In this document: positions 42,866 to 63,518 of the stretch, piece after piece
Numbering within the stretch: position 1 is the stretch's first letter
Layout: each line of letters starts with the position of its first letter
Assembly: GCF_028021195.1 (NCBI RefSeq)
Contig: NZ_CP115668.1
Location: forward strand, 2,046,001-2,110,000
Direction of reading: 5' to 3'
Length of the DNA: 64,000 nt
From: Cutibacterium equinum
Lineage (GTDB): Bacteria > Actinomycetota > Actinomycetes > Propionibacteriales > Propionibacteriaceae
Notes under the pieces: model-generated
Databases searched by the model: none
Told to the model about the DNA's origin: nothing
Seen by the model: only the letters and a program-made list of their open reading frames with translations
Translations under genes and position numbers: made by a program

Positions 42866-42889
42866 CTGCTCATCGAGGGCATCGGCCAG

Positions 42890-45031: not shown

Positions 45032-45085
45032 AACAGGCTCCTGTTCTGAGAGCCCGTTAGACGAAAGTTGCACCGGCTGGTGCGA

Positions 45086-45128
45086 GTGGCTCTCAGCAGA
45101 AGGCCAGAATCAGCGCAAGAGTTAACAC
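45086..45128. repeat. 43-bp imperfect repeat, copy 1
   Basis: About 33 of 43 positions agree with 50021-50063. The best-kept parts are GAAGGCCAG and GAGTTAACAC. It lies upstream of the antirepressor gene. Confidence 0.55.
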
Positions 45129-45212
45129 TCCACACCCGAACGCCGGAAGATCGCTTATTTTCCCGGGTATACCCCGTCGACCCAAGCCACGAAGCGGGCG
45201 AGGATCACTGTC

Positions 45213-45350
45213 ATGGATCGACACACTGTCATGGCAGTGTTGGATTTGATGGACGACGAGATGATCTTCGAATGGTCCTACCGGCTACGCACCGATACTC
45301 GCCCCGGTGCTGCCGAGTTGTATGCGCTGGTGCGGGAATATTTGGAGTAG
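45213..45350 (+). CDS. Small acidic ORF, opposite strand
   Basis: A 45-residue ORF starting MDRHTVMAVLDLMDDEM and ending in VREYLE. It is Asp/Glu- and Met-rich and helical in character. It lies on the plus strand while every neighbour is minus, filling the gap between the antirepressor and the polymerase. AGGA precedes the ATG at about 9 bases. I cannot assign a family. Confidence 0.45.
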   Translation: MDRHTVMAVLDLMDDEMIFEWSYRLRTDTRPGAAELYALVREYLE

Positions 45351-45361
45351 GCCTACGCGGA

Positions 45362-47323: not shown

Positions 47324-47352
47324 GGTAACGGCTCCACAATGGGTTAAGGGCC

Positions 47353-47384
47353 GGGAGAACACCCACAGTGGTGGATGTTCTCCC
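47353..47384. terminator. Hairpin between the small membrane gene and the DNA polymerase
   Basis: A 14-bp stem with one mismatch (GGGAGAACACCCAC against GTGGATGTTCTCCC) and a 4-base loop. It may act as a terminator or attenuator within the minus-strand module. Confidence 0.5.
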
Positions 47385-47401
47385 AGCCAAAGGTTGATGA
47401 T

Positions 47402-47593
47402 TTATGGGTTGGCGGGCGTGCGGTACTGCTCTCGCTGCGCATCGGCATCAGCCATGAGCTGGTCGATGCACTTGCGATCTTTACGGATCTCGCGCTTCTC
47501 TCTGAGCCAGTGGAAGAACCACGCACCCCAGAACGGAATGACCACATACACCAATACGGCCAAAGTGATGGCGTTGAAAACGTCCCACATCAT
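47402..47593 (-). CDS. Small phage membrane protein
   Basis: A 63-residue protein with one hydrophobic helix (about 5-25, VFNAITLAVLVYVVIPFWGAW) and a basic, helical C-terminal half. The start is one of two adjacent ATGs; AAGGGAG lies about 10 bases upstream. No family assigned. Confidence 0.6.
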   Translation of the reverse strand: MMWDVFNAITLAVLVYVVIPFWGAWFFHWLREKREIRKDRKCIDQLMADADAQREQYRTPANP

Positions 47594-47615
47594 GACGATC
47601 ACGCTCCCTTTCCGG

Positions 47616-48167
47616 CTAGTTGAGGAAGTCGTCGCTGGCAGCGAAGACCCCGAAGTCGTCCGCAGCGCTGATGCGGTTGCCGCCGAGCGATTCGCCGTCA
47701 CGCAGCTTCTGGATGTTGCCCAGCCCGCAGGCGATACCCCGGTTGCCGTTCGTGTTGAACGCATAGAAGGAGACGGAGACGCGGGCGTAGCAGCCCGAAT
47801 ACACCTCGGACGCGTCCAAAATCGGCTGCAGATCGGCGCCAACGACCTGGGGTGGCGTGGTCGAGTTGGCGTTGACGAACATCGCGTTCGCATACGCTTC
47901 GTCGTCGCGCTCGATATCGCCGTCACGCAGCGGCAGCTTGAGCGCGGCCTTGTTCGGGCGCTTACCACCAAACTTGCCAATCCCGGCATCGATCGCTGCG
48001 TCGATGGCGCGTTCGATCTTGGCCAGGGTCTCGGTGTCGGACTTCGGGATGATGAGCGACACGGAGTACTTGGGCTTACCGCCCTGAATCGACTTGGCTT
48101 CGAAAATGTTGGCGTAGGAGAGGCGGACCTCATTGGTGACCACGCGGGTCAGATTGGTTGTAGACAT
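47616..48167 (-). CDS. DUF2815 single-strand DNA-binding-like protein
   Basis: A 183-residue DUF2815 protein. VRLSYANIFEAKSIQGGKPKYSVSLIIPKSD near the start and VYSGCYARVSVSFYAFN with GIACGLGNIQKLRDGE near the end are characteristic. Members are believed to be phage single-strand DNA-binding proteins and regularly sit beside DUF2800 and DNA polymerase genes, as here. Confidence 0.85.
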   Translation of the reverse strand: MSTTNLTRVVTNEVRLSYANIFEAKSIQGGKPKYSVSLIIPKSDTETLAKIERAIDAAIDAGIGKFGGKRPNKAALKLPLRDGDIERDDEAYANAMFVNANSTTPPQVVGADLQPILDASEVYSGCYARVSVSFYAFNTNGNRGIACGLGNIQKLRDGESLGGNRISAADDFGVFAASDDFLN

Positions 48168-48193
48168 ACTTGTCTTACCTTCTTTCTTCGTTG

Positions 48194-49330
48194 TTACTTG
48201 ATTTCGCTGAATTCGTCTGTTGCTGACTGGATGTCCAGTGCGGGCCTCTTGTCGGATTCGGGAACCAGGGCAGGTTTGCCTGCCGGTTTGACGACGAGGT
48301 CACCGAGGAGTTCGGTGAACCGTTTCTTGCCGAGCTGCTTCTCGAGGGCGGTGATGGTTTTGAGCTTGCGCTCGTAGATATCAGTCACCCCGGCAGCCTC
48401 AGCGGCCTGGGCGACGGCTTGCTCGTTGGCGTATTTGCGAATGGAGCGGCCTTCGACGAGCTTGAACCCTGACCAGGTCTTGCCCTGATTGACCGCTAAC
48501 GACAGTGCGTAGGCTTCGACGTCCGCCGCCCAGGCCTTCAGTTGCGGCAACTGGGCCAGCACGGCCGCGATCTCGGCGTCGTCGAGCTCAGCTGGAGGGG
48601 CAAACTCGTGCCGCGCCAGTGCGAGGTTGACCTCGGCTCTCGTGCGGCAGGTTGGGTTGAGTTTGCAGAACCGGCACCACTCACCAGAAGCAAACTCGCC
48701 GTTACCACGGGCTGCGAGTGCGGCGGTTGGTTTCACCACCTGCTCAGCCCACGCCTCCAACTCCGCCACGGTGACGTGCCAGGTGGAGATGTTGCCCCTG
48801 CGCGGCTGGAAGATCGTCACCGCAACCTCGTCGATGTCATAGAGCGACCCGAACGCGTTCAGCGCACCGAGGGCGTAGAGCATCAACTGTGGGTTGTGCT
48901 CGGCCTCGACCAAGACCCCCTGGCCGTATTTCAGGTCGATGATCTGGAGCATGGGTTCGGCGATGATCACGGCATCCCCAGTCCCAAATCCACCCGGCAC
49001 CACGTGGGAGAAGTCGAGGCGTTGCTCGATGAGTACGGTCGGATCCGCACGTGTGGCACGCACATCACGCAGCCGTTCTTGGATGAACGCCACATAGTCG
49101 TCGGTGAGCGCTTCCATTTCGTCGTCGATCCACTCCGAGACCGGCTTGATCGTTGGTGAGTCGTGGAGGGCGCGGCGTAGCTTCCACTCCGCCAACCCGT
49201 GCGCCACCGTGCCCTGCTCGGCAACCGCCGACGACGACTCCGGAAGCCCAGCCTCCAACCGTGCTGAGGGCGGGCAGGCCAGCCAACGGTGTGCACCAGA
49301 AGCACTGAGCATCGCGTGTTGGTCAGGCAT
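48194..49330 (-). CDS. DUF2800 protein (PD-(D/E)XK nuclease fold)
   Basis: A 378-residue DUF2800 protein. HRWLACPPSARLEAGLPESSS at the N-terminus, GTGDAVII then QIIDLKYGQG (catalytic D-x-K, about 155), and CRFCKLNPTC (about 235, possible Fe-S cysteines as in Cas4) are the landmarks. It probably processes DNA ends in phage recombination or replication. I start at MPDQHAML, which overlaps the upstream stop by 8 bp. Confidence 0.82.
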   Translation of the reverse strand: MPDQHAMLSASGAHRWLACPPSARLEAGLPESSSAVAEQGTVAHGLAEWKLRRALHDSPTIKPVSEWIDDEMEALTDDYVAFIQERLRDVRATRADPTVLIEQRLDFSHVVPGGFGTGDAVIIAEPMLQIIDLKYGQGVLVEAEHNPQLMLYALGALNAFGSLYDIDEVAVTIFQPRRGNISTWHVTVAELEAWAEQVVKPTAALAARGNGEFASGEWCRFCKLNPTCRTRAEVNLALARHEFAPPAELDDAEIAAVLAQLPQLKAWAADVEAYALSLAVNQGKTWSGFKLVEGRSIRKYANEQAVAQAAEAAGVTDIYERKLKTITALEKQLGKKRFTELLGDLVVKPAGKPALVPESDKRPALDIQSATDEFSEIK

Positions 49331-49739
49331 CGGGCATCGCCTCCGCCCGCTCCAACAACCACCCATACTTGGCCGGATCGACCTCGGACAGCTTGCCTGC
49401 ACCCGCCGCTTGGATCAGTTCGCGCACCTTGGTGGTGTGACCAGCCTGCGAGAGACGTGCGAGTACGGCGCGCACCTGCTCAAGCGTCACCGGCTCCGGT
49501 TCCTCAGCCTTCGCAGGCTCTGGGCTGGTCTGTTGGTGGGTGGTGTCGTACTCCTCGGCCGCATCCTCGAGAGCTGGCTGCGCCAGCTGGGCAGCCGCGA
49601 TCGGACGTGTGCCAGGCATGCCTGCGTGGTCTTCGAAGTTCTCCCAGGCGGATTCTTCGATTGCTTGGGCGAGCATCGTCGCCCCTTCAGCAATCCGGTT
49701 CAACGCGGTGATGTACCGGTTGGCTTTGGTGATGTTCAT
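49323..49739 (-). CDS. Hypothetical phage-type protein
   Basis: A 138-residue acidic protein. A helical N-terminus (NRIAEGATMLAQAIEESAWE), a Glu/Pro linker and a C-terminal helical part (EQVRAVLARLSQAGHTTKVRELIQ) are visible. No enzyme motif. It overlaps its neighbours at both ends, so it is part of the packed module. Confidence 0.6.
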   Translation of the reverse strand: MNITKANRYITALNRIAEGATMLAQAIEESAWENFEDHAGMPGTRPIAAAQLAQPALEDAAEEYDTTHQQTSPEPAKAEEPEPVTLEQVRAVLARLSQAGHTTKVRELIQAAGAGKLSEVDPAKYGWLLERAEAMPDA

Positions 49740-49990
49740 TGCTGATCACCACCACGGGTGGCGCCGACTGCGCGGGCCAGGGCCAGGAGATTGTCATCGG
49801 CGGCGTTGGCGATGCGGACTTCGACTTCGGTGGTGTCGGAGCCGGGCAAGATGATGGCCATCTTGTGGCGCGGTGTCGCGGTGCCGAAGATGTGGCGCAG
49901 CAGGCGCTTGCTGGCTCGGATTTCCTTGGTTGAGATCGTCGCCTTCGGATCGGGCTTCTTGCCGACCCGGAGCTTGAGCTTGGTACTCAT
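49736..49990 (-). CDS. Hypothetical basic protein
   Basis: An 84-residue protein with a Lys/Arg-rich N-terminal half (KLKLRVGKKPDP). No recognised domain. It overlaps its neighbours by about 4 bp on both sides. Confidence 0.55.
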   Translation of the reverse strand: MSTKLKLRVGKKPDPKATISTKEIRASKRLLRHIFGTATPRHKMAIILPGSDTTEVEVRIANAADDNLLALARAVGATRGGDQQ

Positions 49991-50610
49991 CGGTTCTTTC
50001 CTTCCTGAGCGCCACGCTGTGTGTCGCTCAACTGAAGGCCAGGAACCGACGAAGAGTTAACACCCACCTCCCTAAGCCTGTGGATGAGGGTCTCTTTTAC
50101 TCGCTTCAATGCCTGTGAAACGGCCGCCTTGTTCACTCCACGCTCGACAGCGACCTGGGTCGCCGGGCGGCGCTCTATCAGGATCGCGATCGCCACCGCG
50201 CGCTGCACCTCTGGCAGCCCGTCGATCAGGTCGTGCATCAAAGCCATGAGGGCTTCGCGAGTGCGTTCCTCTTCGGCAGCGAAATACTGGTCCTCTGCCG
50301 AGGCCGTGACATAGAGGTCTTGGTTGCCGTGGGCGTTCCACACCTCCCAGGAACACAACACATCCTTGTTGCGGTCTTGCCGCCACAGCGTGTGCCACGC
50401 GTTGTACTCATCGCGCCCGAGCTCGGTGACAATGTCTTGGGCGGTGCGCGGCTGGAGAGTTGACGGGTCGTCGGCTGCTTGTTGGCGCTGTTTGAGGTCG
50501 GTGGCGATCATCGCCGCCACTTCCTCAGGTGAGGCTTCCAAGTCACGGTCGATACGTGCCTTCGCGCCGGTGTAGTTCCTGATGGGTTCTGATGTAATCG
50601 TGAGCTTCAT
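49987..50610 (-). CDS. Sigma-70 region-4-like regulator
   Basis: A 207-residue protein with a charged helical N-terminus and a C-terminal HTH of sigma region 4 type (about 140-180: RRPATQVAVERGVNKAAVSQALKRVKETL). GGAGGA sits just before the ATG. Phages of actinobacteria often carry such sigma-like proteins to drive early or late genes. Its last codons overlap one copy of the 43-bp repeat. Confidence 0.7.
   Translation of the reverse strand: MKLTITSEPIRNYTGAKARIDRDLEASPEEVAAMIATDLKQRQQAADDPSTLQPRTAQDIVTELGRDEYNAWHTLWRQDRNKDVLCSWEVWNAHGNQDLYVTASAEDQYFAAEEERTREALMALMHDLIDGLPEVQRAVAIAILIERRPATQVAVERGVNKAAVSQALKRVKETLIHRLREVGVNSSSVPGLQLSDTQRGAQEGKNR
50021..50063. repeat. 43-bp imperfect repeat, copy 2
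   Basis: Lies at the 3' end of the sigma-like gene and about 31 bp upstream of the next start on the minus strand. Its relative is at 45086-45128. Confidence 0.55.
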
Positions 50611-50913
50611 GGCTCCTCCGCATTCGTTGCGGAAGACCCAGTGCTCAGGCCGGGATAGGATTCACGAGAGGAGAGCGTTCAAGGCGGATATGACGACGGG
50701 CACCCCACCTGCTGCGCTGATGGCAGCGAGGCGAGGTGCCCGTCAGGCCTGAACGGGGTCTCCCAAGTGAAATTGATTGACAAATAGGTCTGCTGGCTTA
50801 GCTACAGCCGCAGAGAAGGTGTGCTGACCGGCCAGCTACCGGTACGAGACGGCCAGCAATGAACAAGTGGTGGACTCGGCGCTGTCGACACGCAGACGAA
50901 CCAACCTCAGGGG
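50611..50913. other. Gap with a 10-bp hairpin
   Basis: No gene is visible. GACGGGCACC (50695-50704) pairs with GGTGCCCGTC (50735-50744) and encloses a smaller GCTGC/GCAGC stem. This could be a terminator for the 47-residue gene on the minus strand or a small structured RNA. Confidence 0.4.
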
Positions 50914-51057
50914 CTACTTGCCCTTCTTCGACGGACGTGCCTGCGCCAGAGCCGACGCCGCGACCGACTTCGTCCTGGCAGACGAACGCCCGTCACGCAG
51001 TGCAGCCGACGCCTTGCGCGCAACAGCCCGCGACGTTTGCTTCGAGTTCCTCGCCAT
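50914..51057 (-). CDS. Small basic Ser/Ala/Lys-rich protein
   Basis: A 47-residue protein beginning MARNSKQTSRAVARKAS and ending ARPSKKGK. It is strongly basic with few large hydrophobics. Similar short basic Ser/Ala/Lys proteins are found on many plasmids and chromosomes, without known function. A very strong ribosome site, GGAGGAGGTGATC, precedes its ATG. It heads the minus-strand module. Confidence 0.7.
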   Translation of the reverse strand: MARNSKQTSRAVARKASAALRDGRSSARTKSVAASALAQARPSKKGK

Positions 51058-51278
51058 GGTGATCACCTCCTCCTGCTCGATCCGATTCACCCGTGCCGGG
51101 TGCGTGTTAGTGAGCGTTGAAGCGTGGTCTTGTGAGACAATGAAGGGGTCAAACTGAGTCTCAAAGGCCGTGATCTGCTCACATGTTCATTTCACGACAT
51201 CGTTTTTGGACTCAACGGCTCGAAAACTTGGACTGGATGGACTGGTTCTTGGACTGATCGGCAAAGGAGCGCACAGCG
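51058..51278. promoter_or_regulatory. Divergent control region between phage module and defence operon
   Basis: Four copies of TGGACT occur at 51207, 51229, 51238 and 51250, just before the ribosome site AAAGGAG of the first defence gene. The last two spacings are 9 and 12 bp. They may form an operator array. The minus-strand ribosome site of the 47-residue gene is at the left end. Confidence 0.4.
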
Positions 51279-52133
51279 ATGACCCTTCGTAGCTTCTGCA
51301 CAGCCGTTTACAAACGAAACGGCAAAGTCACAAGCCAGACGAAATTTGCCCAAGCGCTCTTTTCAGCGTGCGGATCGTCCTATCAGGTCAGCGATGATTA
51401 CGGCCCGAAGTTGTTCAAAAGGGAAGCTCCGCTTGACCCAGATATCCGGTCAATGTTCCCCAAGCCAATCGACCGCGAGGCTCTTCGAGATTTCCTTCAA
51501 GACCACATCACTCCCGGGCCAGGGCAGCGCAAGGACGTTCAAGACCGCATCCGCGAGATCGCCGAGAAAACGGGGCTCGGCGGAAGGGGACAAGTAGACC
51601 AGGCTGCGTTCTTCTTGGCACTAACAGACTGGCTGAACTCGATCATTCACACCCCAGAAAACACTGAACGACTCCTTGACCACTACCTTCGGCGAGTCAA
51701 TGGGGGTGTCCCCGACGATCAAGCGATCTATCAGCCGCCACCCCGCCCCGGCGACAAAGTAGACGTCTTGTACCCGCCCACGCAACAGGATTATCGTCCG
51801 GCATTCTGGGGCGGATTCGAACACCGATGGGTCATGAAGAACCTTGGACACGAACCATGGGTAGGGCGAACTCTTGTCTGCACAAACCCAAAAGACAATG
51901 GAATACGGCCAGCAGCAGCGGTGATCCCTATCCCGGATAGCGCACCGTCGAAAAACAACCTCATAGAGATCAGAGCACAATTCACTGCACACGGACGCGA
52001 AGGAAAAGCCACCAGTGAATGGCAGATGCACGACGAGAGCGGAACGAACTGCTTCCCCGGATCTTCGAATCAATTCAACGTGGAAGCGACCGTCGTCAAC
52101 CCGAATGTCTCCATCAACGGAGGGCGCAGATGA
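51279..52133 (+). CDS. Protein with predicted C-terminal NBR1-like four-tryptophan domain
   Basis: A 284-residue protein, first gene of the defence operon. The N-terminal 135 residues look helical, possibly HTH-like near TSQTKFAQAL. After a Pro-rich linker (about 150-165), residues 172-275 carry four Trp at 177, 184, 194 and 248. The pattern is W-x-M/L-x-N-x-G-x(3)-W, and later EWQMHDESGTNCFPG. This matches the FW (NBR1 Ig-like) domain, known from autophagy receptors and also from bacterial, often actinobacterial, proteins. Its stop overlaps the next start (ATGA). AAAGGAG precedes the ATG. A sensing or scaffolding role is inference. Confidence 0.6.
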   Translation: MTLRSFCTAVYKRNGKVTSQTKFAQALFSACGSSYQVSDDYGPKLFKREAPLDPDIRSMFPKPIDREALRDFLQDHITPGPGQRKDVQDRIREIAEKTGLGGRGQVDQAAFFLALTDWLNSIIHTPENTERLLDHYLRRVNGGVPDDQAIYQPPPRPGDKVDVLYPPTQQDYRPAFWGGFEHRWVMKNLGHEPWVGRTLVCTNPKDNGIRPAAAVIPIPDSAPSKNNLIEIRAQFTAHGREGKATSEWQMHDESGTNCFPGSSNQFNVEATVVNPNVSINGGRR

Positions 52134-52354
52134 CAGACCCCTTCGAACCATGGGTCACGATGAAAGACGTCCAGGAGCATTTAGGTGCCCGCAGAGAAAC
52201 GATCACCCAATGGATCGGGAAACGAAATATGCCCGCCTACAAAGTAGGCAGGCAATGGAAATTCAAACTCAGTGAGATAGACGAATGGGTTCGCTCCGGC
52301 GGGGCAGCAGAAACAGACGTAACAAGGCAGAAAGAGGAGGGCGCAGATGCCTGA
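52130..52354 (+). CDS. Excisionase-like HTH protein (MerR/Xis group)
   Basis: A 74-residue DNA-binding protein with the HTH_17 pattern: VTMKDVQEHLGARRETITQWIGKRNMPAYKVGRQWKFKLSEIDEWV. The wing residue pattern KVGRQWKF is typical. It overlaps both neighbours, ATGA upstream and eight bases downstream into mod, so it is co-translated. It may be an operon regulator (a TGGACT array lies upstream) rather than a true excisionase, since no integrase is present. Confidence 0.82.
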   Translation: MTDPFEPWVTMKDVQEHLGARRETITQWIGKRNMPAYKVGRQWKFKLSEIDEWVRSGGAAETDVTRQKEEGADA

Positions 52355-54311
52355 ACTGACATGGGTAGGCAAAGACAAAGTCATCACCCACCACCTCGAC
52401 GTGCCCTACCGCGTCCTCGACCGCCAGTACTCCTTCGACGAGACCGGCCAACACAATGACAACAACGGCTCCGAGAACATGATCATCCATGGCGACAACC
52501 TCGAAGCCCTCAAAGCCCTACTGCCCAAATACGAAGGCAAAGTCGACTGCATCTACATCGACCCTCCCTACAACACCGGCAACGAGGGCTGGGTCTACAA
52601 CGACAACGTGAACGACCCGCGCATCAAGAAATGGCTCGGCGAAGTCGTCGGCAAAGAAGGCGAAGACCTCAGCCGCCATGACAAGTGGCTCTGCATGATG
52701 TACCCACGCCTGCGGCTGCTGCACCGGCTGCTGTCACCGACCGGGGTCATCTTTATCTCGATCGACGATAACGAGGCGGCACCACTGCGGCTCATCTGTG
52801 ACGAGATCTTCGGTAACCGGTGCTTCGTCGCCGATATCTGCTGGCAACGCACCTACTCCACACGAAACGATTCCAAAGGCATCCCGGCCGAGGTCGAACA
52901 CCTTCTCGTCTTCTCCAAACAGCCCGGATGGAACCCAAACAAGCTGGAACGCACCGAAGACATGGATTCGATCTACAAGAATCCCGACAACGATATTCAG
53001 CCTTGGACCAGCTCTGATGCTTTCGCGCCTGGTGCGGCAACTCACCAAGGAATGGTGTACGCGGTCCAGTCTCCATTTACAGGGGAATTCATTTATCCTG
53101 CACGTGGTCGATGCTGGACATTTGAACAATCTGAAGTTCTTCGGCTGATGCGGGGTTGGACTGAATACGAGCTCCGTGATCTCGATGACGCAGAGAAGAG
53201 GGCTGAAGTGTGCGGCATCCCTGTCGCTGCCGTTAAGCCGGACGTGCTCGGAATTGTTCTGAGCAAACCCTTGGACGAGGCCCGTGCGGATGCCCAGGCA
53301 GTGATGGATCGCGGGCAGTGGCCACGCTTCTACTTCACTAAGGGTGGATACGGAGGAGTTCGACGCAAAACCTATCTCGATAGTGTTGGAGGTCTGTTGC
53401 CAACAAATTTCTGGCCCTATGACGTGGCCGGGCACACAGACGAGGCAAAGAAAGAGGTTCGCGCGATCTTTGACGGCCGGGTGGCATTCGATACCCCGAA
53501 GCCGACTCGGCTCATCGAACGGATCCTGAAAATCGCAACCGAGCCCGGTGACCTAGTGTTGGACTCGTTTGCAGGCTCTGGCACAACCGGTCAAGCCGTG
53601 CTGAACGTCAACAAGCAAGATGGCGGAGAGCGCAGATTCATTCTTGTCGAACTCGGCGACTACGCCGATACGGTGACTGCTGAGCGCGTTCGCCGCACGA
53701 TTCACGGGTTCAAAGACACACGTACCGAAGAGCACGTGCTGTTCGAGGAGAAACTGACTTTGAGCGCGTTGCGCAAGGGCGAGAACCTTTTGGCGGAGGC
53801 CACGGAAATTTTCGAGCAGGCACGGGGCAACTACACGAAAGTGCTGCGGCCGAAGATCGTCACAAAAGTTACCGGCAAGTCAGGCTCATCCTTTGTTCAA
53901 GTGGTTGCACGACAGGAGCACGAGGACGATGTTTCGGGTACCGGCGGCAGCTTTTCCTACTACGAACTTGGCTCCCCACTACTTATTGGTGGCGACCTGA
54001 ATCCTGAGGTTCCGTTGGAGCGTGTGCGTGAGTACATCTGGTTCACGGAGACTGGCCAGGCATACGAGTCAGGCTCGGCCGATATTCATGCTGACTTCCT
54101 GGGGCGTTCTGTTACCGGGGTGGCGTATTTCTTTGCTTTTGATGCCGAGGCACCGACTGTGCTTGATCGGGAGTATTTGGCGTCAATCCCGGCGGAGTGT
54201 GCGGCTGAGGCGTATGTGATGTATGCCGATACGTGTGTGCTGTCTGAGCAGGAGTTGGCGGCGCATTCGATCACGTTTAAGAAGATCCCTCGGGATATCA
54301 CCCGCTTGTAA
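52347..54311 (+). CDS. Type III restriction-modification, methyltransferase subunit (Mod)
   Basis: A 654-residue N6-adenine methyltransferase of the beta class. The catalytic motif DPPYNTG (72-78) comes first, the target-recognition region lies in the middle, and the SAM motif FAGSGTTGQAV (408-418) near the end. This order and length match type III Mod subunits. Mod sets the specificity of the system and protects host DNA. It overlaps the upstream HTH gene by 8 bp and is followed by res after 16 bp. The recognition site cannot be predicted. Confidence 0.9.
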   Translation: MPELTWVGKDKVITHHLDVPYRVLDRQYSFDETGQHNDNNGSENMIIHGDNLEALKALLPKYEGKVDCIYIDPPYNTGNEGWVYNDNVNDPRIKKWLGEVVGKEGEDLSRHDKWLCMMYPRLRLLHRLLSPTGVIFISIDDNEAAPLRLICDEIFGNRCFVADICWQRTYSTRNDSKGIPAEVEHLLVFSKQPGWNPNKLERTEDMDSIYKNPDNDIQPWTSSDAFAPGAATHQGMVYAVQSPFTGEFIYPARGRCWTFEQSEVLRLMRGWTEYELRDLDDAEKRAEVCGIPVAAVKPDVLGIVLSKPLDEARADAQAVMDRGQWPRFYFTKGGYGGVRRKTYLDSVGGLLPTNFWPYDVAGHTDEAKKEVRAIFDGRVAFDTPKPTRLIERILKIATEPGDLVLDSFAGSGTTGQAVLNVNKQDGGERRFILVELGDYADTVTAERVRRTIHGFKDTRTEEHVLFEEKLTLSALRKGENLLAEATEIFEQARGNYTKVLRPKIVTKVTGKSGSSFVQVVARQEHEDDVSGTGGSFSYYELGSPLLIGGDLNPEVPLERVREYIWFTETGQAYESGSADIHADFLGRSVTGVAYFFAFDAEAPTVLDREYLASIPAECAAEAYVMYADTCVLSEQELAAHSITFKKIPRDITRL

Positions 54312-54327
54312 GGCCAGGAGCTCGATC

Positions 54328-56982
54328 ATGGAATTGAAGAAGTATCAAAAGCGTGTGATTGCCGACCTGACGGACTACCTTGCGCAGCTGAAGGAGCACT
54401 CGTCACTGAGCGAGGCGTTTACCGCGTTTTGGGAGTCACGCCAGATCCCTGTTGGTAGGGATGGTATCCCTGGGTATCAGAACATCATCGATGAGGTTCC
54501 GCATGTGTGTTACAAGGTGCCCACGGGTGGTGGTAAGACGTTCTTGGCGTGTGCGTCGGTGAAGCCGATTTTTGATGCGTTGCCGCTGGTGCGTCGCCGG
54601 GCGGTGGTGTGGCTTGTGCCGTCCGATGCGATATTGACCCAAACGTTGGCAGCGTTGAAGGATCCGCATCACCCGTACCGTCAACGGTTGAATGCTGACT
54701 TCACTGGCCGCGTGGAGGTCTACTCGAAGGAGGAACTGCTGGCCGGGCAGAACTTCAGCCCCGCTACGGTGGCTGAGCAGTTGTCAGTGATGGTGCTGTC
54801 GTATGACTCGTTCCGCTCGGCAAATAAGGAAGGCCGTAAGGCGTATCAAGCTAACGGCAATCTGGCACCGTTCGCGACTGCGTTGGGTGCCCCGGAGCAG
54901 CCGATCGAGAACGCTGATGAGACTGCGCTGTTCCAGGTGATTAATCAGCTCAATCCGGTGGTGATCGTGGATGAGTCGCATCATGCCACGAGTAACTTAA
55001 GTACCGAGATGCTGGTGAACTTCAACCCAGCGTTCATTCTTGATCTGACAGCGACACCGAAGAAGCAGTCGAACATCATCTCGTACGTTGATGCGTTGGC
55101 GTTGAAGAACGAGAACATGGTCAAGCTCCCGGTGATCGCCTACAACCGGTCTTCGCAGGCTGAGGTGGTCACGGATGCGATCGATCTGCGACAGTCACTC
55201 GAAACCGCAGCCGCCCAGCAACAAGCTGCGGGTGGGCGCTATATTCGCCCGATCGTGCTGTTCCAGGCGCAACCGAAGACCGGCGAGGATGCCACGTCAT
55301 TCGAGAAACTGCGTGACAAGCTGGTAGGCACCGGCATCCCGGCCGAGCAGATCGCTATCAAGACGGCAAACATCAACGAACTCAAGGGTGTGGATCTGCT
55401 GAGCCCTGAGTGCGAGATCCGCTATATCATCACGGTCAATGCGCTCAAGGAGGGCTGGGACTGCCCGTTCGCCTACATTTTGGCGTCCCTTGCGAACAAG
55501 ACCAGCCAAGTGGACGTGGAGCAGATCCTGGGCCGTGTGCTTCGCCAGCCTCACGCCGCCCGGCAGCGCAACCAGCTGTTGAACATGAGCTACGTATTGA
55601 CCTCATCGAATGATTTCAGTGCCACGCTCGAACAGATCGTTGCGGGCTTGAATAGTGCAGGGTTCTCCAGGCGCGACTTCCGTGCCGCAGACGAATCGGT
55701 ACTTGATTTCACCCCAGGGTCAACCGCGCCAGCTCCTCAACCGCAGCCCGGGAAACCTGTGGATGAATCCGTAACTGCTGACGAAGATTTCCTCGATTTC
55801 GATGAGAACGATGTCGCCTCCGGCCTGGAGCAGCGAGGCACGGCTGCAGGCGAGACAGCCGAGCCTGGTGACGCTCATGCCGGGTTGGCGTCGATGCTCG
55901 AGCACGCTGCACAGCAAGGAGCTGATTATGAGCATGAGGCAGAGCAGGCGGCGCAGCTTGGTGATGTTTTTGTTCCCTCGGATTTGGAGGACACTGTGGA
56001 CACTACGGAAATGATCGCCGACTACCGTGACGAAGTCTCCGAGCTGAAGATTCCGCAGTTTGTTATCCAGACTCCTCCGTCGGTGTTGTTCCCAACTGGC
56101 GGTGACGGGGTGGATCTTCTGCGCAATGATGCGCTTGCCGCAGACTTCGTGCTGCGCGATAAGGACATTCAACTCGACCTGACGATCGCTGACGAGCAGA
56201 TGTACAAGATCGATGTGAAGAAACAAGCTGATGTGCCGCGCGCGTTCCGCATGAGTGCCTCTGACCAGAAGATCATGCGGGAACACTTCAGCAGGCTGAG
56301 TGTCGAATCCCAGAAACGCAACGCTGCCGAAGCGATCTATGAGCGCCTTAAGCCGATCAACTCTGTCAACGATTCCGACCTGCGTTCCTACATCGGGCGG
56401 ATTGCCGACAACTTCGGGCCTGAGGATCTGTTGACCTACCAGGAGCGGCCGAACGCTGTGGCCGACAAAATCCGCGACAAGATCAAGGGGCTGTTGGAGG
56501 AGTACAAAACCAAGAAGTTCTATGACGCGATCGAAACCCGCCACATCGACATTCGATACACCTACAATCTGCCGGTGGTGATTCAGCCCATCCACTCGAC
56601 CTCGCTGATCGGCGGTTCGCTTTATGAGGCCGAAGACCAGATGAATAAGGACGAGACGGAATTCGCCGCCCGGTTCTCAGGCATGGAGAACGTGCGGTGG
56701 TGGCATCGCAACATTGAACGAAAAGGCTTCGCAATCAATGGCCCGTTCAACCACTACCCGGACTTCATTGTGATGACCACCAGCGGCACCGTGGTGATGG
56801 TCGAGCCTAAGGGAGAACAGCTCAAGAACGATGACTCCAGGCGCAAAATCAAGCTCGGCAACAAGTGGGCCTCGCTAGCAGGTAACCAGTTCCGGTACTA
56901 CATGGTGTTCCAAGACGGTGTTACACCGCTGGAAGGTGCACTGAACCAGTCGCAGTTCTTCTCGATCCTCGAGCAGCTCTAA
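54328..56982 (+). CDS. Type III restriction-modification, helicase-nuclease subunit (Res)
   Basis: An 884-residue superfamily 2 helicase with nuclease. Motif I is VPTGGGKTF (64-72), motif II VDESHHATS (about 214), motif III LTATPKK, and motif VI QILGRVLRQPHA (about 405). The C-terminal nuclease domain shows PDFIV...MVEPKG, with Asp812, Glu826 and Lys828, the PD-(D/E)XK set of type III Res. The ATG has AGGAG eight bases upstream. All residues needed for activity appear present, so with Mod it should form a working system. Confidence 0.9.
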   Translation: MELKKYQKRVIADLTDYLAQLKEHSSLSEAFTAFWESRQIPVGRDGIPGYQNIIDEVPHVCYKVPTGGGKTFLACASVKPIFDALPLVRRRAVVWLVPSDAILTQTLAALKDPHHPYRQRLNADFTGRVEVYSKEELLAGQNFSPATVAEQLSVMVLSYDSFRSANKEGRKAYQANGNLAPFATALGAPEQPIENADETALFQVINQLNPVVIVDESHHATSNLSTEMLVNFNPAFILDLTATPKKQSNIISYVDALALKNENMVKLPVIAYNRSSQAEVVTDAIDLRQSLETAAAQQQAAGGRYIRPIVLFQAQPKTGEDATSFEKLRDKLVGTGIPAEQIAIKTANINELKGVDLLSPECEIRYIITVNALKEGWDCPFAYILASLANKTSQVDVEQILGRVLRQPHAARQRNQLLNMSYVLTSSNDFSATLEQIVAGLNSAGFSRRDFRAADESVLDFTPGSTAPAPQPQPGKPVDESVTADEDFLDFDENDVASGLEQRGTAAGETAEPGDAHAGLASMLEHAAQQGADYEHEAEQAAQLGDVFVPSDLEDTVDTTEMIADYRDEVSELKIPQFVIQTPPSVLFPTGGDGVDLLRNDALAADFVLRDKDIQLDLTIADEQMYKIDVKKQADVPRAFRMSASDQKIMREHFSRLSVESQKRNAAEAIYERLKPINSVNDSDLRSYIGRIADNFGPEDLLTYQERPNAVADKIRDKIKGLLEEYKTKKFYDAIETRHIDIRYTYNLPVVIQPIHSTSLIGGSLYEAEDQMNKDETEFAARFSGMENVRWWHRNIERKGFAINGPFNHYPDFIVMTTSGTVVMVEPKGEQLKNDDSRRKIKLGNKWASLAGNQFRYYMVFQDGVTPLEGALNQSQFFSILEQL

Positions 56983-57004
56983 ACCGAAAGAAGGGCGTGA
57001 GTCG

Positions 57005-57940
57005 ATGGACGCAGGTGACCAGTTGAGCATGTCGTTGTCTCGCACGTCAAGAGACAGCGGCTTCAACGCGATCTTCACCGAGGTCAGCCACCCTCACACG
57101 CTCGGATTGAAGAATGCTGAACAACTACGCTTGTTCCACCTCGCGGTGCAAAACAGTCGGTTCTCTCACCGAGATCTGATCAGCTTCCTACGTCTAAATT
57201 TGGGACGTTACGTGTTTTCCCGAGCCGAAATCGCCGACTACACAGTCACTGATAGGACTGAGCTGATCGTCTACGACGCTGCCGGACGAATGGGGACCCA
57301 AGACAGCGGACAAGGACTCGGGGAACTCATGCTCTACATCCTGCTCGAGCAGGTCCTTAATGCACCGAAGGTATTAAGCAAGATTGAGCTCAATCAGCAA
57401 GCCGGGCACACGCGTAGCCGCTGTGATGCCATCCATCTGCTTACCCCCGATGGTGGCACCCCGGTGAGCAGTATCGTCTTCGGAACCTCCAGCCTGAGCG
57501 GAGACATCCAAGACGCAATTGACGACGCCTTTGACAAGATCGTGCAGATCGAGACGAACTCAGCAACAGAATGTCAGCTGGCTGAAGAACAGGTGTTCAC
57601 AACCTTCCTCGACTCGGGAACAGCCAAGACCATCAAAGAACTTCTGATCCCGCAACCTGGCGGGGCTGTTTCTTACGACAGTTCCTACGGAATCTTCCTC
57701 GGCTACAACCTTGGGCTCCTACCCGGCAATTACAGCAACGACGATTACCGGCATCAGTTGGACTGGAAAATGGGCCACGATATCGCCCACCACGCCTCCT
57801 ATATCGCCAACAAGATCACAACCCTGAACCTAGGCACACACGCCTTCTACGTCTACGTCCTCCCATTCGACGACAGTGACACAGATTCCGTTTCGATCAT
57901 GGACGCCGTGCTGCAGCGAGGAGGTAAGACCAGTGGCTGA
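57005..57940 (+). CDS. hamA: HamA (DUF1837), Hachiman antiphage subunit
   Basis: A 311-residue protein matching DUF1837/HamA. LGELMLYILLEQVLNAP (about 105-121), SRCDAIHLL (about 138-146) and SSIVFGTSSLSGDIQDAIDDAF (about 155-176) follow the family order. HamA is the nuclease-fold subunit paired with helicase HamB; together they guard against phage by acting on DNA. In HamA proteins I know, the third segment carries a GE-x-K active-site motif; here it reads GTSS (160-163), so the catalytic pair may be lost. The next gene, a long helicase, overlaps it by 8 bp, the usual hamAB arrangement. Confidence 0.78.
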   Translation: MDAGDQLSMSLSRTSRDSGFNAIFTEVSHPHTLGLKNAEQLRLFHLAVQNSRFSHRDLISFLRLNLGRYVFSRAEIADYTVTDRTELIVYDAAGRMGTQDSGQGLGELMLYILLEQVLNAPKVLSKIELNQQAGHTRSRCDAIHLLTPDGGTPVSSIVFGTSSLSGDIQDAIDDAFDKIVQIETNSATECQLAEEQVFTTFLDSGTAKTIKELLIPQPGGAVSYDSSYGIFLGYNLGLLPGNYSNDDYRHQLDWKMGHDIAHHASYIANKITTLNLGTHAFYVYVLPFDDSDTDSVSIMDAVLQRGGKTSG

Positions 57941-60587
57941 GACCCCTGTCAACGTTGGGGAGCTGGTCTTCAACGATATTGACTCTAATGGCTTTCTCCA
58001 GCAGCTTTACGCCAACCTGCTCTACAACTACGGTCTTTACCGGCTCCGACTTCCGAAGCGTGAACCCTACGATGTTGATGTGGAAGCAGCTCTGCGGTTT
58101 GCCGACCTGCTGTCAAAATCCACCCATCCTGACAATCGCGACACCCACCGAGTGTGGGCGCAAGAGATCGCACTGCTGTGCCAGATCCTTTATCCAAACG
58201 ATCCACTCACGCAGGCTTACGTTCCCGCCATCTTCACCACACTGGGCAACTACCCAGGACTACGCCAATTGGGTGTGACTGCAGATACCGGCTTCCTTGA
58301 TACAGCATTTAACGCTTACCAGGCCCAGTATTTGACGGTTCCTGGGGATCCCGCAATGAAGTTCTTCGTCCCTCAAAAGAAAATCTACGAGCGCCTGACC
58401 GACGGCAAGTTCTCGTTCTCGGCTCCCACCTCGTTGGGTAAGTCCTTCATCATGCGTACCTTCATCACGAACCAGATCAAATCCGGGGTCAAGGAAAACT
58501 ACGCGATCATCGTGCCTTCCAAGGCGCTGATCAACGAGACCCGTTCAAAATTGATCGCCGATCTTGGAGAAGATCTCGAACGGTACGACTACCGTATCGT
58601 CAGCGCCGCCGGGGACATCGTGCTCGAAGGCGACCATCATTTCATCTTCGTCCTCACCCCAGAACGACTGCTCTACCTCCTGATCGGCAAACCCTCGATC
58701 GAGTTCGCCTACGTCTTCTTTGACGAATCGCACAAGCTCTCAGGCAAAAACAGCCGAGCACCGTTCTACTACCAAACCGTCACAATCCTTCAACACCGAC
58801 CCAAGCCACCGCACTTTATCTTCGCCTCACCCAACATTCCCAACCCAGAAATCTTCCTCAGACTCATCAACCCCGAAACTGGTGAAAGCGAAGCCAACGC
58901 AATTGCAACCCAGTATTCACCAGTCGTGCAGTTCAAATACCTTGTCAACCTGTATGACGATACGATCTCCAGCTACAACGACTACACCCAAGAATTCAGC
59001 CACCTGGCGTCCATCGAACGCCCGGGAACCACTGCTGCGGACATCACTCGATTTGTTGGCGAATCGTCACGGCGGTTGAACAACCTTGGCCAAACCATCG
59101 TGTTCCACTCAGCCCGTCAGCGCGCGGTGGACGCCGCCCGAGAATACGCCGAGGGGATGGCAAACCTCAACGACGAGGACCTCGACGCGCTCGCCAAAGA
59201 CATCGAACGCGATGTCCATGAGGACTACTATCTCAGCGACCTGATTCGTAAAGGCATCAGCTACCACATCGGCTACCTCCCACCAGCGATCCGAGAACGC
59301 ATTGAAGGCCTGTTCCGCGAAGGAAAAATAGCGACGCTGTTTTGCACCAGCACGCTACTCGAAGGAGTCAACCTCCCAGCCGACAACCTCGTCATTACAA
59401 CGAACAAGATCGGCCGATCAGGCATGACACCAGTCGATTTCAAGAATCTCATCGGCCGCGTTGGACGCATCGAGTTCAATCTCTACGGCAACGTCTTCAT
59501 CGTCGTCGGCCAAGACCTCGCTGACGAGCAAAAGGCGAAGGAACTCTTGCAAGCATCCGTGCCCACGCAGAAGCTCTCCATCGAAACCGACTCCCACATC
59601 ATCAGCAACAGGATGAAACAAGATGTCGTCAATGATCTCCAAGAAGGAAAGATCGAGTTCACCAAGGGAAATGAGACCTACGAACGCTACGACATGAAAC
59701 GAAAGTTTGGCCTCATGCTGCTGCGCGACATCACCACCGGCCGTCAAAGCCTAGTTCGTGAAGAATTCTCCGACTACCTCAACGAACAAACCATTAGCAG
59801 AATTCATACTGCCTTTGCACAACGAGAAACCCAACAAGATGATGACATCAACGTTTCCGTTGACCAAACAGAATCCTTAGCCGACGCCATCAAAGCCGGA
59901 CTTAAATATCCACAAATCTCTCAAGACGGCAAGTTCGACTACGACACGACGCTGGCTTTTCTGGAAAGGCTCGCCTCAATTTTCAAATGGCGGATCTATG
60001 ACCCAGAGACACTAGGCAAAACAGCACGCGGCAGCAACCAACTCACCCTGCTGCGCTGGTACACAGTCTTACTCACCCAGTGGATGGAAGGCCACGGGCT
60101 TCGCTCAATCATGAACCGCGCCCTCGACTACCATCTAAGGCAAGGAACGCTCTACATCGCTGGAAAGGGCGAAATCCGGTACGAAAACACACTCCAGCAT
60201 CGCAACATCGTCATCAGCGAAATTCTCAAGGTACTCGAAGATGTGATCCTGTTTAGCCTGTCTAACTATTTCCTGAAGTTCTCCAACGAATACAAGAAAG
60301 TCCATGGTGTCGAGCAATTCAAAAACGACTGGTACGAATACGTCGAATACGGTACAACGAAGCAAGAAACCATCCTGCTCCAACGACTCGGATTCACCCG
60401 TGAAAGCGCCACCTACATTCGTACCAACATTTCTAACGCACTCATCCTTCACGAGGGAACTCCCTACTTGAACCCCCTCCTCCTCGAAAGTACCAACATC
60501 AACGTTCGCAAAGAAGCCAACGAAATCCGTTACAACGTGCCTGAAGCGTTCTCGCTCCCAAGTAGCTACTTTCCGCACCATAACTAA
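57933..60587 (+). CDS. hamB: HamB, Hachiman helicase subunit
   Basis: An 884-residue superfamily 2 helicase. Walker A is APTSLGKS (164-171), motif II FDESH (264-267), motif III FASPN, and motif VI LIGRVGRIEFN. After a 160-residue N-terminal domain and the two RecA lobes come about 350 further residues. I start at the GTG preceded by AGGAGG at 8 bases, overlapping the hamA stop. In Hachiman, HamB translocates on DNA and controls HamA. An intact helicase next to DUF1837 is the strongest evidence for Hachiman. Confidence 0.85.
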   Translation: MAETPVNVGELVFNDIDSNGFLQQLYANLLYNYGLYRLRLPKREPYDVDVEAALRFADLLSKSTHPDNRDTHRVWAQEIALLCQILYPNDPLTQAYVPAIFTTLGNYPGLRQLGVTADTGFLDTAFNAYQAQYLTVPGDPAMKFFVPQKKIYERLTDGKFSFSAPTSLGKSFIMRTFITNQIKSGVKENYAIIVPSKALINETRSKLIADLGEDLERYDYRIVSAAGDIVLEGDHHFIFVLTPERLLYLLIGKPSIEFAYVFFDESHKLSGKNSRAPFYYQTVTILQHRPKPPHFIFASPNIPNPEIFLRLINPETGESEANAIATQYSPVVQFKYLVNLYDDTISSYNDYTQEFSHLASIERPGTTAADITRFVGESSRRLNNLGQTIVFHSARQRAVDAAREYAEGMANLNDEDLDALAKDIERDVHEDYYLSDLIRKGISYHIGYLPPAIRERIEGLFREGKIATLFCTSTLLEGVNLPADNLVITTNKIGRSGMTPVDFKNLIGRVGRIEFNLYGNVFIVVGQDLADEQKAKELLQASVPTQKLSIETDSHIISNRMKQDVVNDLQEGKIEFTKGNETYERYDMKRKFGLMLLRDITTGRQSLVREEFSDYLNEQTISRIHTAFAQRETQQDDDINVSVDQTESLADAIKAGLKYPQISQDGKFDYDTTLAFLERLASIFKWRIYDPETLGKTARGSNQLTLLRWYTVLLTQWMEGHGLRSIMNRALDYHLRQGTLYIAGKGEIRYENTLQHRNIVISEILKVLEDVILFSLSNYFLKFSNEYKKVHGVEQFKNDWYEYVEYGTTKQETILLQRLGFTRESATYIRTNISNALILHEGTPYLNPLLLESTNINVRKEANEIRYNVPEAFSLPSSYFPHHN

Positions 60588-60596
60588 GGCATAGAC

Positions 60597-61529
60597 ATGG
60601 CAACATCTGCTCTCCACCGTGAACTTGGAGTACCGGCACGCACGCCCGTGACCTATGAGCTTCTTTGTAAACTCGCTGAGCACGGCGTCCGCGAGCAATC
60701 TGACCTCGACTTTAAACAAACGCTCTACCACCCGAAGAACGAGAAGGATAAGCGAGAACTCGTCAAGGACGTGTGCGCCATGGCTAATTCCGGAGGTGGT
60801 TGGATCATCTGTGGCATAGCCGAAGACGACAGTGCCGCCGCCCATGCCCCTGGAGTCAACCTGGCAATAACGAGTGAGACAGATGTACACCAGCTTCTAG
60901 AAAGCCGACTTGACCCACCAGTGACTGTTGACATCCGTATCTACGAAAGCGCGAACCGAGATACAACTCTCGTAGCTCTACGCGTTCCTGATTCTCCAAA
61001 TAAGCCACACTTAGTGCGAGCTACGAAGACTGACGGTCAAGAGCTTGTGGACACAAGAACTTTTCGAGTTCCACTTCGAAAAGGCGCAAGTACAGTCTGG
61101 CTAGACGAAAGGACAATTCGCAGTCTGTATCGCAAGAGCCTCAGCATCGCCGAAGAAACAGAAGCCCTGAAAATTCACCGCCTTGAGGAACTTGCAGCTA
61201 AGGCTGCCGATGAGTTCCCTGGTGTCGCGCTTGCGCTAGTGCTCAGCCCCCACGACCCGCTTTCGGGAAAACTCAACAAACAAGAGGTTCAAAAGCTACT
61301 CCAGGATGTCGACTCGGATAGATTCACGCTGAACCAAGGATATTCCTCCCTGCACGGCATATCTGGATCGCTAATCGTAGGCGATCGTCGTTACATAGGT
61401 AAACAATCTTCTAATCGCCGTCACAGACTCGGAACTGCATGCTCGCCTCGTCCCACATGGCGAAGCACCCATCATCATCCGCAGAAACGAAGGCGCCTGG
61501 GCAAGCAGTCTTCTTCGCCCCCGAAATGA
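60597..61529 (+). CDS. AlbA_2/Schlafen-like protein, frameshifted
   Basis: A 310-residue ORF with an AlbA_2 (Schlafen AAA_4-type) domain in the first 150 residues: EQSDLDFKQTL (about 32-42) and VCAMANSGGGWIICGIAEDD (about 60-79) are the signature. A mixed region follows to about residue 265 (GDRRYI). After that the reading frame turns into a Arg/Ser/His-rich run without protein character. The neighbouring frame resumes sense with VNNLLIAVTDSELHARLV, so one base has been gained or lost near 61395-61400. It starts 9 bp after hamB, as last gene of the operon. Schlafen-type proteins can bind or cleave RNA; the role here is unknown. Confidence 0.65.
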   Translation: MATSALHRELGVPARTPVTYELLCKLAEHGVREQSDLDFKQTLYHPKNEKDKRELVKDVCAMANSGGGWIICGIAEDDSAAAHAPGVNLAITSETDVHQLLESRLDPPVTVDIRIYESANRDTTLVALRVPDSPNKPHLVRATKTDGQELVDTRTFRVPLRKGASTVWLDERTIRSLYRKSLSIAEETEALKIHRLEELAAKAADEFPGVALALVLSPHDPLSGKLNKQEVQKLLQDVDSDRFTLNQGYSSLHGISGSLIVGDRRYIGKQSSNRRHRLGTACSPRPTWRSTHHHPQKRRRLGKQSSSPPK

Positions 61530-61719
61530 ATCGATGCCTATTAAGCATTTCAGAACCATCACCCACACTCTTCAAGCCAGCCCGACACCAGAGGAAGAGC
61601 ACGAAATCCTCACTGACCTCATCGCCGAGGTGCTTAACCAGGGCGGCATCGAAACGACGCGCCTACTCCAGCCGCTTCAGCAACACGAAGAATCAAGCCC
61701 CTCACCTAGAACTCAGTAA
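61399..61719 (+). pseudogene. Continuation of the AlbA_2-like gene in another frame
   Basis: About 106 codons read VNNLLIAVTDSELHARLVPHGEAPI through LRPRNESMPIKHF to QQHEESSPSPRTQ and a stop. The composition is normal protein and fits as the true C-terminus of the previous gene, which would then be about 374 residues. Confidence 0.6.
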
Positions 61720-62105
61720 TGCAGGCACCAAACCACACCCGCCCGCCACTCCGTGCACAGCCTGAGAGGCTGAAAGCGCGGAGGACGGGCTGGTAGAAGG
61801 CTTCTTCACCCCAGCAGTCGCTAACTCCGCGCCTCGCATCCGTCAGCGAACCGTATGAGGTCACCGCATACCTTTTGATGGCTCAGGTACCGGCCTCTGT
61901 ACTGGGTGCACTTCACTGATCCAACTCAGGCCATTTCGCCGAACTTGCCCCCGAGACCGCGCTTCAAGATGGGACCCGAAAGATCATCGGCTCCCGAGGA
62001 ATCCGCTTCAGTTTCGCCTTTTCGCTGGTAACAGCGCATTTCCTACGTCGCTAGAGCCCAGTCGCGCACACTACGATTTTGTATCAACGTCTGAATCCAA
62101 CGTTT
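61720..62105. other. Gene-free right end of the inserted segment
   Basis: About 385 bp between the defence operon and the hsdM fragment. I see no recognisable gene, tRNA or inverted repeat. Short open stretches on both strands do not resemble known proteins. The boundary with hsdM lies at about 62105. Confidence 0.4.
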
Positions 62106-63024
62106 GGAGACGATCGCCTCGAAGGGTTCGTCGTCCCAGTGCGCGGGATCGATGAGAGTGTCGCCGTGGGCGAGGTTGAACTTCTCGTAGTTGATGTCAT
62201 GCAGGAACATGTTGATGCGCGCGAGGTTGTACGTCGTCAGGTTGATCTCTTGGCCGAAGAACCCCTGGCGGACGTTTTCCTTGCCCAGCACCTTCGCGAA
62301 TTTCAGCAGCAAACCACCGGACCCACAGGCCGGGTCATAAACCTTGTTGACCTCCGTCTTGCCGACGACGGTAATCCGCGCCAATAGCTCGGACACCTCC
62401 TGGGGTGTGTAGTACTCCCCACCGGACTTACCGGCCTGGGATGCATACATCGCCATGAGGTATTCGTACGCATCGCCAAACAGATCAATAGTGTTGTCGG
62501 CAAAGTCGCCTAACGGCATGTCCCCCCACCGCGTCGAGCAACTTGACCGACTTGGCATTCCGCTGGGCGACGGTTGACCCAAGCTTATTGCTGTTCAGAT
62601 CGAAATCTGCGAACAATCCCTTGAGGTCGTCCTCGCTCTCCGTGCCCAAAGCAGAACCCTCAATGTTCTTGAACACCCGCTCAAGAGTCTCGTTGAGGTT
62701 CACATCTTGCGCCGCCCTGGCACGCACGTTGCAGAACAGCTCCGACGGAAAGATGTAGAACCCCTTCTCCTCCACCGTCGACTGCATGCCGTACACCGCC
62801 ATCTCGTCGGAGAAGGTGGCGTAGTCGAAGTCGGCGTCCCCGGCAGCCCGCTCCTGCTCGTTGATGTAAGCCGTGAGGTTCTCGGAGATGAACCGATAGA
62901 ACAACGTTCCAAGCACATAGGTCTTGAAGTCCCACCCATCCACAGAGCCGCGCAGGTCGTTCGCGATCCGCCAGATCGTTTTATGCAACTCAGCACGCTG
63001 ATTCTCGGAAATCGCAGGCGACAT
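62106..63024 (-). pseudogene. hsdM: hsdM N-terminal fragment, frameshifted and truncated
   Basis: The N-terminal part of a type I modification subunit. The start MSPAISENQRAELHKTIW has AGAGG six bases upstream. Reading is normal to KLLDAVGG (about 62525), where a run of six G shifts the frame. In the other frame [54 protein letters not shown] and DEPFEAIVS continue it. At EAIVS the sequence breaks off, just before the expected NPPY motif, and unrelated DNA follows. The C-terminus of the same gene is found 20.8 kb away at 40886-41284. Without NPPY it cannot methylate. Confidence 0.88.
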
Positions 63025-63518
63025 CGGCATCCTCTCGACATGGGCCATTAGGTGAACGGTATCGCCTGCCTCCGACAAGAATCACAGCCAGGTGCCGGAA
63101 CAGATCCTGCGGACATCTGCCCATGCCGACTGGCACACTCCTCGCAGGATCACCGGCGAGGCCGTCACGCTCGACGGCCCGGGACACTGCGCACAGTTGC
63201 CCTGCACAGGAGTCCTGGGCGACACCGTCATCACGAGTCGACGTTGCGGATAGCCCGTGCCCACCGCCAAGCATACGGACAGGCTACCCTCAAATCATTT
63301 CCCATAACACGAGGACGCCATTCTTGGTGCGTCGTACTTCAACGTCACCACATTCATCGTCACCGTTCCGACGATCGCCTTTTCCCACTATTTTTATCGT
63401 GTAGAATGGATCAAACATGGTTGTGAGACAATGGTCGCCTTACCGATGCCAACCCATCCGTCCAGGACGGCCAACGACCCACACCACGGCACGAATACCC
63501 GGAAAGGAAGCGTCGACC
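63025..63518. promoter_or_regulatory. Intergenic region upstream of the cupin gene
   Basis: About 490 bp with no convincing gene; ORFs here are shadows of the cupin gene. The last 130 bp are more AT-rich and contain TAGAAT at 63402-63407, a possible -10 element with TG one base before it. The hsdM promoter must also lie here. Confidence 0.35.

Follow-up and report, generated by a model that had tools for sequence, protein, structure and literature searches.

The stretch of Cutibacterium equinum DNA analyzed here, 64,000 nucleotides in length and called the window (NZ_CP115668.1, positions 2,046,001 to 2,110,000), carries a run of plus-strand genes that opens with an FW-domain protein and continues through a type III restriction-modification (RM) system and a Hachiman-like gene pair. 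Its features are the following, in window coordinates.

40275–50610, minus strand: phage replication module, divergent from the cassette (Pfam, PHROGs, and open reading frames)
51279–52133, plus strand: FW protein, first gene of the cassette; helical N-terminal domain (residues ~1–140) and NBR1-type FW beta sandwich (residues ~158–275)
52130–52354, plus strand: HTH_17 or excisionase-family protein (HTH), 74 amino acids (HTH_17 43.1 bits, for the longer ORF)
52347–54311, plus strand: Mod, type III N6/N4 DNA methyltransferase with a variable recognition region (PADLOC MTase_III, E 3.2e-177; Pfam N6_N4_Mtase)
54328–56982, plus strand: Res, type III restriction subunit, helicase and PD-ExK nuclease (PADLOC REase_III, E 4.5e-87; Pfam ResIII)
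57005–57940, plus strand: HamA (DUF1837), free-standing, nuclease motif lost (PADLOC HamA, E 1.4e-118; Pfam HamA, 146 bits)
57479–57493, plus strand: HamA residues 159–163, FGTSS, with T161 and S163 at the expected catalytic E and K of GExK
~57924–60587, plus strand: HamB, Ski2-like helicase, start codon uncertain (PADLOC HamB, 1190 bits)
60597–61529, plus strand: AlbA_2 (Schlafen-like) gene, apparently frame-broken, outside the conserved cassette (Pfam SLFN_AlbA_2, 55.7 bits)

The HTH gene is taken to start at the ATG at 52130; the listed ORF start, 52019, falls within the FW gene. The start of Res (54328) was taken from relatives, the ORF itself opening at 54223. All six ORFs from FW to HamB are open, and neighbors in the run either overlap or are separated by 9, 16, or 22 bp. 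The first-pass annotation had described seven plus-strand genes that overlap or lie no more than 22 bp apart, and had assigned Mod/Res and HamA/HamB to recognized families; gene content and order were confirmed, and PADLOC and Pfam matches bear out the families. The PADLOC models detect each of Mod, Res, HamA, and HamB separately and include no FW family. With the DNA methylase domain of Mod and the helicase and PD-ExK nuclease of Res, the middle genes constitute a type III RM system. The Res motifs GGGKT, DESH, and PD...EPK are intact, and the identity of Mod between relatives drops sharply in mid-gene. HamB likewise has intact helicase motifs (SLGKS and DESH) and matches the solved relative 9wh1_B with an E-value of 1.2e-63. 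In a consensus scan of 50400–63500, one sigma-70-like site was observed, inside Mod, as compared with 5.0 by chance. Terminator-like sites in the same span numbered 19 versus 13.0 expected (sd 4.5), and every one on the plus strand was within a gene.

The trailing AlbA_2 gene had been included in a proposed combined cassette. Its own frame closes at 61529, but sequence of coding character continues in a different frame up to a stop that ends at 61719, where the first-pass annotation had placed the end of the run, and the gene therefore looks frame-broken. A tblastn search found no counterpart in 23 related loci, and no AlbA_2 gene follows HamB in 11 further inspected, partly redundant loci. 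Seven homologs in the host family have longer open frames (421–463 amino acids) and occupy other genomic places; only one of their genomes also has Hachiman in the host-family set, ~0.7 Mb apart (G466). The lack of a match in related loci, the broken frame, and the location of homologs elsewhere rule out AlbA_2 as a member. The proposal of a combined cassette thus stands for six genes, FW-HTH-Mod-Res-HamA-HamB, which recur in other genera, and falls for AlbA_2. The same division holds for the flanking genes: FW-HTH is conserved beside RM-HamAB in other genomes, whereas AlbA_2 is not conserved beside HamB in related loci. The first-pass annotation had overlooked three properties of the locus, namely its setting as phage cargo, a HamA that lacks its nuclease motif, and the exchangeability of the RM slot.

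Searches with the single FW sequence found no homologs in genome or viral contigs, nor in 395 other sampled Actinomycetota genomes. These empty results reflect the limits of such searches rather than absence, since scans based on a four-row alignment (A1) found 17 FW loci, eight on viral and nine on genome contigs. A HamA scan yielded 22 loci on viral contigs, and for three of these the contig had already come up in the FW scans. Merging at at least 98% identity left 24 distinct FW loci, three of which end before HamA, leaving 21; these loci represent one phage lineage, and counts among them are not independent events. Across the phylum, the Pfam FW profile has a match in 36 of 246 genomes, including that of the window. 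Six actinobacterial genera, among them that of the window, carry the order FW-HTH-Mod-Res-HamA-HamB, which lies beside the replication module in seven of the nine genome contigs. Carriers are Trueperella bernardiae, Gleimia europaea, Winkia neuii, two Mobiluncus species, Propionimicrobium lymphophilum, and a record titled Tissierella. HTH directly follows FW in all 24 distinct FW loci, and the replication module is upstream on the opposite strand in 22; the other two (L038 and L071) have less than 2 kb of upstream sequence present. As judged from this recurrence of order, the six genes from FW to HamB make up a conserved cassette.

Some of the records have peculiarities of their own. The Tissierella-titled locus is 97.9% identical over 19.5 kb to one from Trueperella (L052), which indicates either contamination or recent transfer across phyla; it was not counted as a separate host. 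Loci from the two Mobiluncus species (L056 and L057) are identical in the element over 19,168 bases, which points either to a very recent transfer or to mixed-up records. At L051 (4913–8980), HerA-like and NurA genes and a piece of a type III methylation subunit precede FW-HTH, at a contig end.

The replication module has genes for a DNA polymerase, a Gp2.5-like SSB, and an exonuclease by PHROGs, and for a Bro/KilAC antirepressor and a RhuM fragment by Pfam, along with a sigma/KorA-like gene at a sub-threshold match and a gene that we read as primase-like. DUF2815 corresponds to the Gp2.5-like SSB and DUF2800 to the exonuclease. The module is 66–78% identical in DNA to four actinobacterial relatives, and similarity to these four spans ~41.3 kb to 60.56 kb of the window. 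Of the 13 genomes or records of relatives, 12 have a match to the portal family PF04860, and the one without is a 35.7 kb viral contig; the portal gene is ~26 kb from FW in Gleimia and Mobiluncus mulieris. A search for PF04860 in the window's own genome gave no match, so no portal gene of this family, as would mark an intact prophage, accompanies the window copy. Because relatives mostly have this gene, the window copy is most likely a prophage remnant that retained the cassette. Adjoining the remnant on the minus strand are type I hsdM fragments in two frames (62043–63078), which are a decayed second RM system.

The ends of the cassette are constant and its middle is not. Of the 21 loci that reach HamA, 19 have RM genes after HTH and before HamA: type III mod-res in six, res-mod in two, and type I in 11, where type I denotes an HsdM or HsdR match after FW, with HsdS recognized in some loci only and HsdM and HsdR in one (L069) having no gene between them. 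The remaining two (L066 and L075) have FW-HTH-HamAB with no RM between. Clostridial phages keep the FW-HTH and HamA-HamB ends with a different RM middle. An Anaerosphaera phage record and its kin have FW-HTH-Res-Mod-HamA-HamB, with a Res that no PADLOC model matches, and other clostridial phages have type I genes at this position. In the HamA tree, the type III and res-mod forms sit among type I forms; several forks are poorly supported, and the topology fits with exchange of the RM part. Gene order across these loci establishes the RM slot as exchangeable between fixed FW-HTH and HamA-HamB ends. Defence-like genes also follow HamB in the same direction in seven loci (L062, L063, L065, L067–L069, and L072). 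Ten proteins scanned after HamB in clostridial loci include GmrSD, Mrr, AAA_13, part of an ABC-3C system, a helicase, and AAA_5, and the phage site is one that accumulates defence genes.

Known HamA proteins have a D-GExK motif, and a double mutation in ECOR31 HamA (E138A,K140A) abolishes defence, according to PMC12278908. The position of the motif in the window HamA was set by alignment with three HamA proteins that keep GESK and by a 29-row alignment; one further locus (L082) ends before the motif. None of the 27 lineage rows has the catalytic E, where T, A, K, or S stands instead, and the catalytic K is gone from 26 of them, L076 alone retaining it. Outgroup HamA proteins keep both E and K (two rows of the 29-row alignment and three of three overall). 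The protein is 311 amino acids long, with the HamA domain alone above its Pfam cut-off. Among five relatives (10 pairs), dN/dS is 0.07–0.23 for HamA, as compared with 0.09–0.17 for HamB, 0.04–0.09 for Res, and 0.00–0.36 for FW. These HamA ratios indicate that the loss of the motif is not decay and that HamA is under purifying selection despite it. It is conceivable that HamA is still a nuclease with an altered active site, the whole being ordinary Hachiman plus RM: HamA is well conserved, and the D of the motif is retained in many rows as CD[AG]IH. We regard this as highly improbable, as the E is replaced in every lineage row and the K in all except one, and these are the two residues whose joint mutation in ECOR31 HamA led to loss of defence (PMC12278908).

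Other Hachiman loci served as controls. A pattern search found no GESK-type HamA in viral contigs, and controls were therefore drawn from plasmids and host-family genomes. No annotated methyltransferase-restriction system was near Hachiman, in the stretch shown, in any of nine plasmid loci (nine of 30 records, 7 of 21 plus 2 of 9, from a PLSDB gene table that is incomplete and irrespective of HamA motif). One of these (L090) has a DUF262 gene with a GmrSD-like name behind HamB. In five others (L084–L088), the next gene in the same direction is named 'DCL family protein' and is possibly an accessory part. In the host family, Hachiman is beside RM in one of three loci; the two others, both with GESK, have no RM adjoining by BLAST against an RM set. 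In the one that does (L041, 4712–13173), GESK Hachiman directly follows type III mod-res with overlapping genes, its HamA is ~25–27% identical, and no FW was found; it is an independent joining of RM and Hachiman in the same host family. A gene behind this Hachiman that appeared AlbA_2-like by eye was dissimilar to the window AlbA_2 and had no AlbA_2 match. At L093 (4298–13566), which is without FW, a C5 methylase, AAA_5, and a LlaJI nuclease are followed by a fused HamA and then HamB. Where FW-less loci are classed as lacking an intervening RM, other RM types such as this LlaJI-type RM are outside the scope of the classification. A search for PF08878 over 396 genomes of the phylum had a match in the window's own genome only. 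Proximity of RM to Hachiman is therefore uncommon, although it does occur outside this lineage.

RM and Hachiman might be independent modules at a phage defence hotspot, sharing a cargo site and a promoter, with FW-HTH as a marker or regulator of the site. The GmrSD, Mrr, AAA_5, and ABC-3C genes behind clostridial HamB, the swapping of RM types and their absence from two loci, and the joining of mod-res to a GESK-keeping Hachiman at L041 all favor such independence. We consider it doubtful, though a serious possibility: FW, HTH, HamA, and HamB keep a fixed order around a changing RM in 19 of 21 loci, and the motif is lost from HamA in all aligned rows, which would leave a separate Hachiman without its known effector.

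The Pfam FW profile is just at cut-off for the FW protein of the window and clearly above it for two others (L060 and L066), and a profile of 23 FW proteins matches NBR1 (4ole) with an E-value of 1.1e-6. The domain belongs to the FW fold, a beta sandwich as in NBR1 and ILRUN, and the window protein has four tryptophans (W177, W184, W194, and W248). Unlike in NBR1 and ILRUN, the FW domain here is joined to a helical domain and sits inside a phage defence cassette. Against a library of viral structures, the best matches had TM-scores of only about 0.2–0.3. FW shows no sign of partnership with Mod, as its allele classes vary irrespective of the type of Mod; in L055 and L056, Mod is shared and the FW N-terminus differs. 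In seven FW-less relatives, HamA has an N-terminal extension that weakly resembles the N-terminal domain of FW (~10% identity, HHalign probability 33–34%). The HHalign score was 29.8, as compared with 21.0 for the best of 100 column shuffles and 14.3 for the reversed sequence. Models of FW and of the HamA extension have helices in similar order, the fused-HamA model being poor in its HamA part (mean pLDDT 59.5).

The HTH protein scores 42.2 bits against the NCBIfam excisionase model (cut-off 28.8) and 59.4 bits against MAD1, under the cut-off of 80. In MADS systems, a small HTH_17 protein (MAD1) precedes a DNA methyltransferase, an arrangement that the window shares. Unlike in MADS, the window HTH is below the MAD1 cut-off, and different genes follow. 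Membership in the excisionase family, together with the lead position of FW-HTH in all 24 distinct loci, its facing the divergent phage module, and possible DNA binding by the helical part of the FW protein, raises the idea that FW and HTH are a control pair for lysogeny or RM, delaying restriction until methylation is complete or tying the cassette to the prophage state, with no sensing. We think this unlikely. The weak resemblance of the extension in FW-less relatives to the FW N-terminal domain suggests a link with HamA and not with a promoter, and the FW domain of eukaryotic Nbr1 binds a protein, Ams1 (PMC9233695).

Compared with known systems, the window pair resembles Hachiman in having adjacent HamA (DUF1837) and Ski2-like HamB with intact helicase motifs. 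It differs in that FGTSS occupies the place of D-GExK and in sharing its run of genes with RM and FW-HTH. As D-GExK is a defining feature, the window system is not canonical Hachiman. Adjoining methyltransferase and helicase-nuclease genes are as in type III and type I RM systems, but here they are embedded between FW-HTH and HamAB and are swapped for other RM types in relatives. Inactive HamA is known from fusions, with a protease in HamMAB and with a nuclease domain in AbpA, and acts as a relay in the protease-HamA systems, as described in PMC12799240 and PMC12278908. The likeness to HamMAB and AbpAB lies in an inactive HamA domain kept with HamB, the effector in those systems being outside the HamA domain; the difference is that the window HamA is free-standing and the FW protein separate. 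The window system is not HamMAB, which consists of a trypsin-like protease fused to inactive HamA and a separate MBL nuclease: neither protease nor MBL had a match among eight scanned ORFs (PADLOC best 25, for two ORFs). The window system is a Hachiman variant that probably acts like the dead-HamA systems, with an effector outside HamA. Among the open-licence PMC literature matches listed, none describes an inactive HamA that stands alone and is linked to RM and FW, nor a composite unit with an exchangeable RM part and an FW protein; PMC12839542, in its accessible part, mentions Hachiman but neither NBR1 nor the FW domain.

At the level of sequence, the conserved order, phage setting, exchange of RM, loss of the HamA motif, and intact HamB and Res motifs are established. 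We put at even the chances that the cassette is a temperate phage defence unit, in which FW-HTH heads a single run of genes for RM and a Hachiman variant. Such a unit could operate as follows. With moderate likelihood, the HTH protein would set expression of the unit in the lysogen, RM would mark self DNA and cut unmarked phage DNA, and HamB, a sensor of DNA ends in known Hachiman, would load onto broken or replicating phage DNA. The inactive HamA would not cut but relay the signal, as reported for protease-HamA systems. FW is the first candidate for a partner in this relay, given its constant position and its resemblance to the HamA extension, and the odds are about balanced that it is HamA's partner, an adaptor or sensor handing the signal on. 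A partner might then do the cutting, the RM nuclease being the most plausible one in loci that have it; we advance this step only tentatively because two FW-HTH-HamAB loci are without RM. These same two loci (L066 and L075) indicate that RM is not obligatory, and the GESK Hachiman directly behind mod-res at L041 indicates that an inactive HamA is not required for adjacency to RM.

A fuller reading, which is possible although we lean against it, is composite phage-borne immunity in which an exchangeable RM recognizes and cuts, dead HamA with HamB senses damage, and FW couples the two. In this composite immunity, and with the same reserve, FW may be the detached counterpart of the domain that is fused to HamA in sister phages.

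The FW domain is a hallmark of the autophagy receptor NBR1. Judged from the literature matches listed, its proposed part in the cassette would, if true, be the first role of an FW domain in bacterial immunity, and the domain is now placed in an antiphage setting, with an RM slot swapped between fixed ends across phyla. Two defence systems that are usually counted apart would be linked in one conserved, phage-carried unit, and the reason for the retention of an inactive HamA would become testable: its effector should be among its neighbors.
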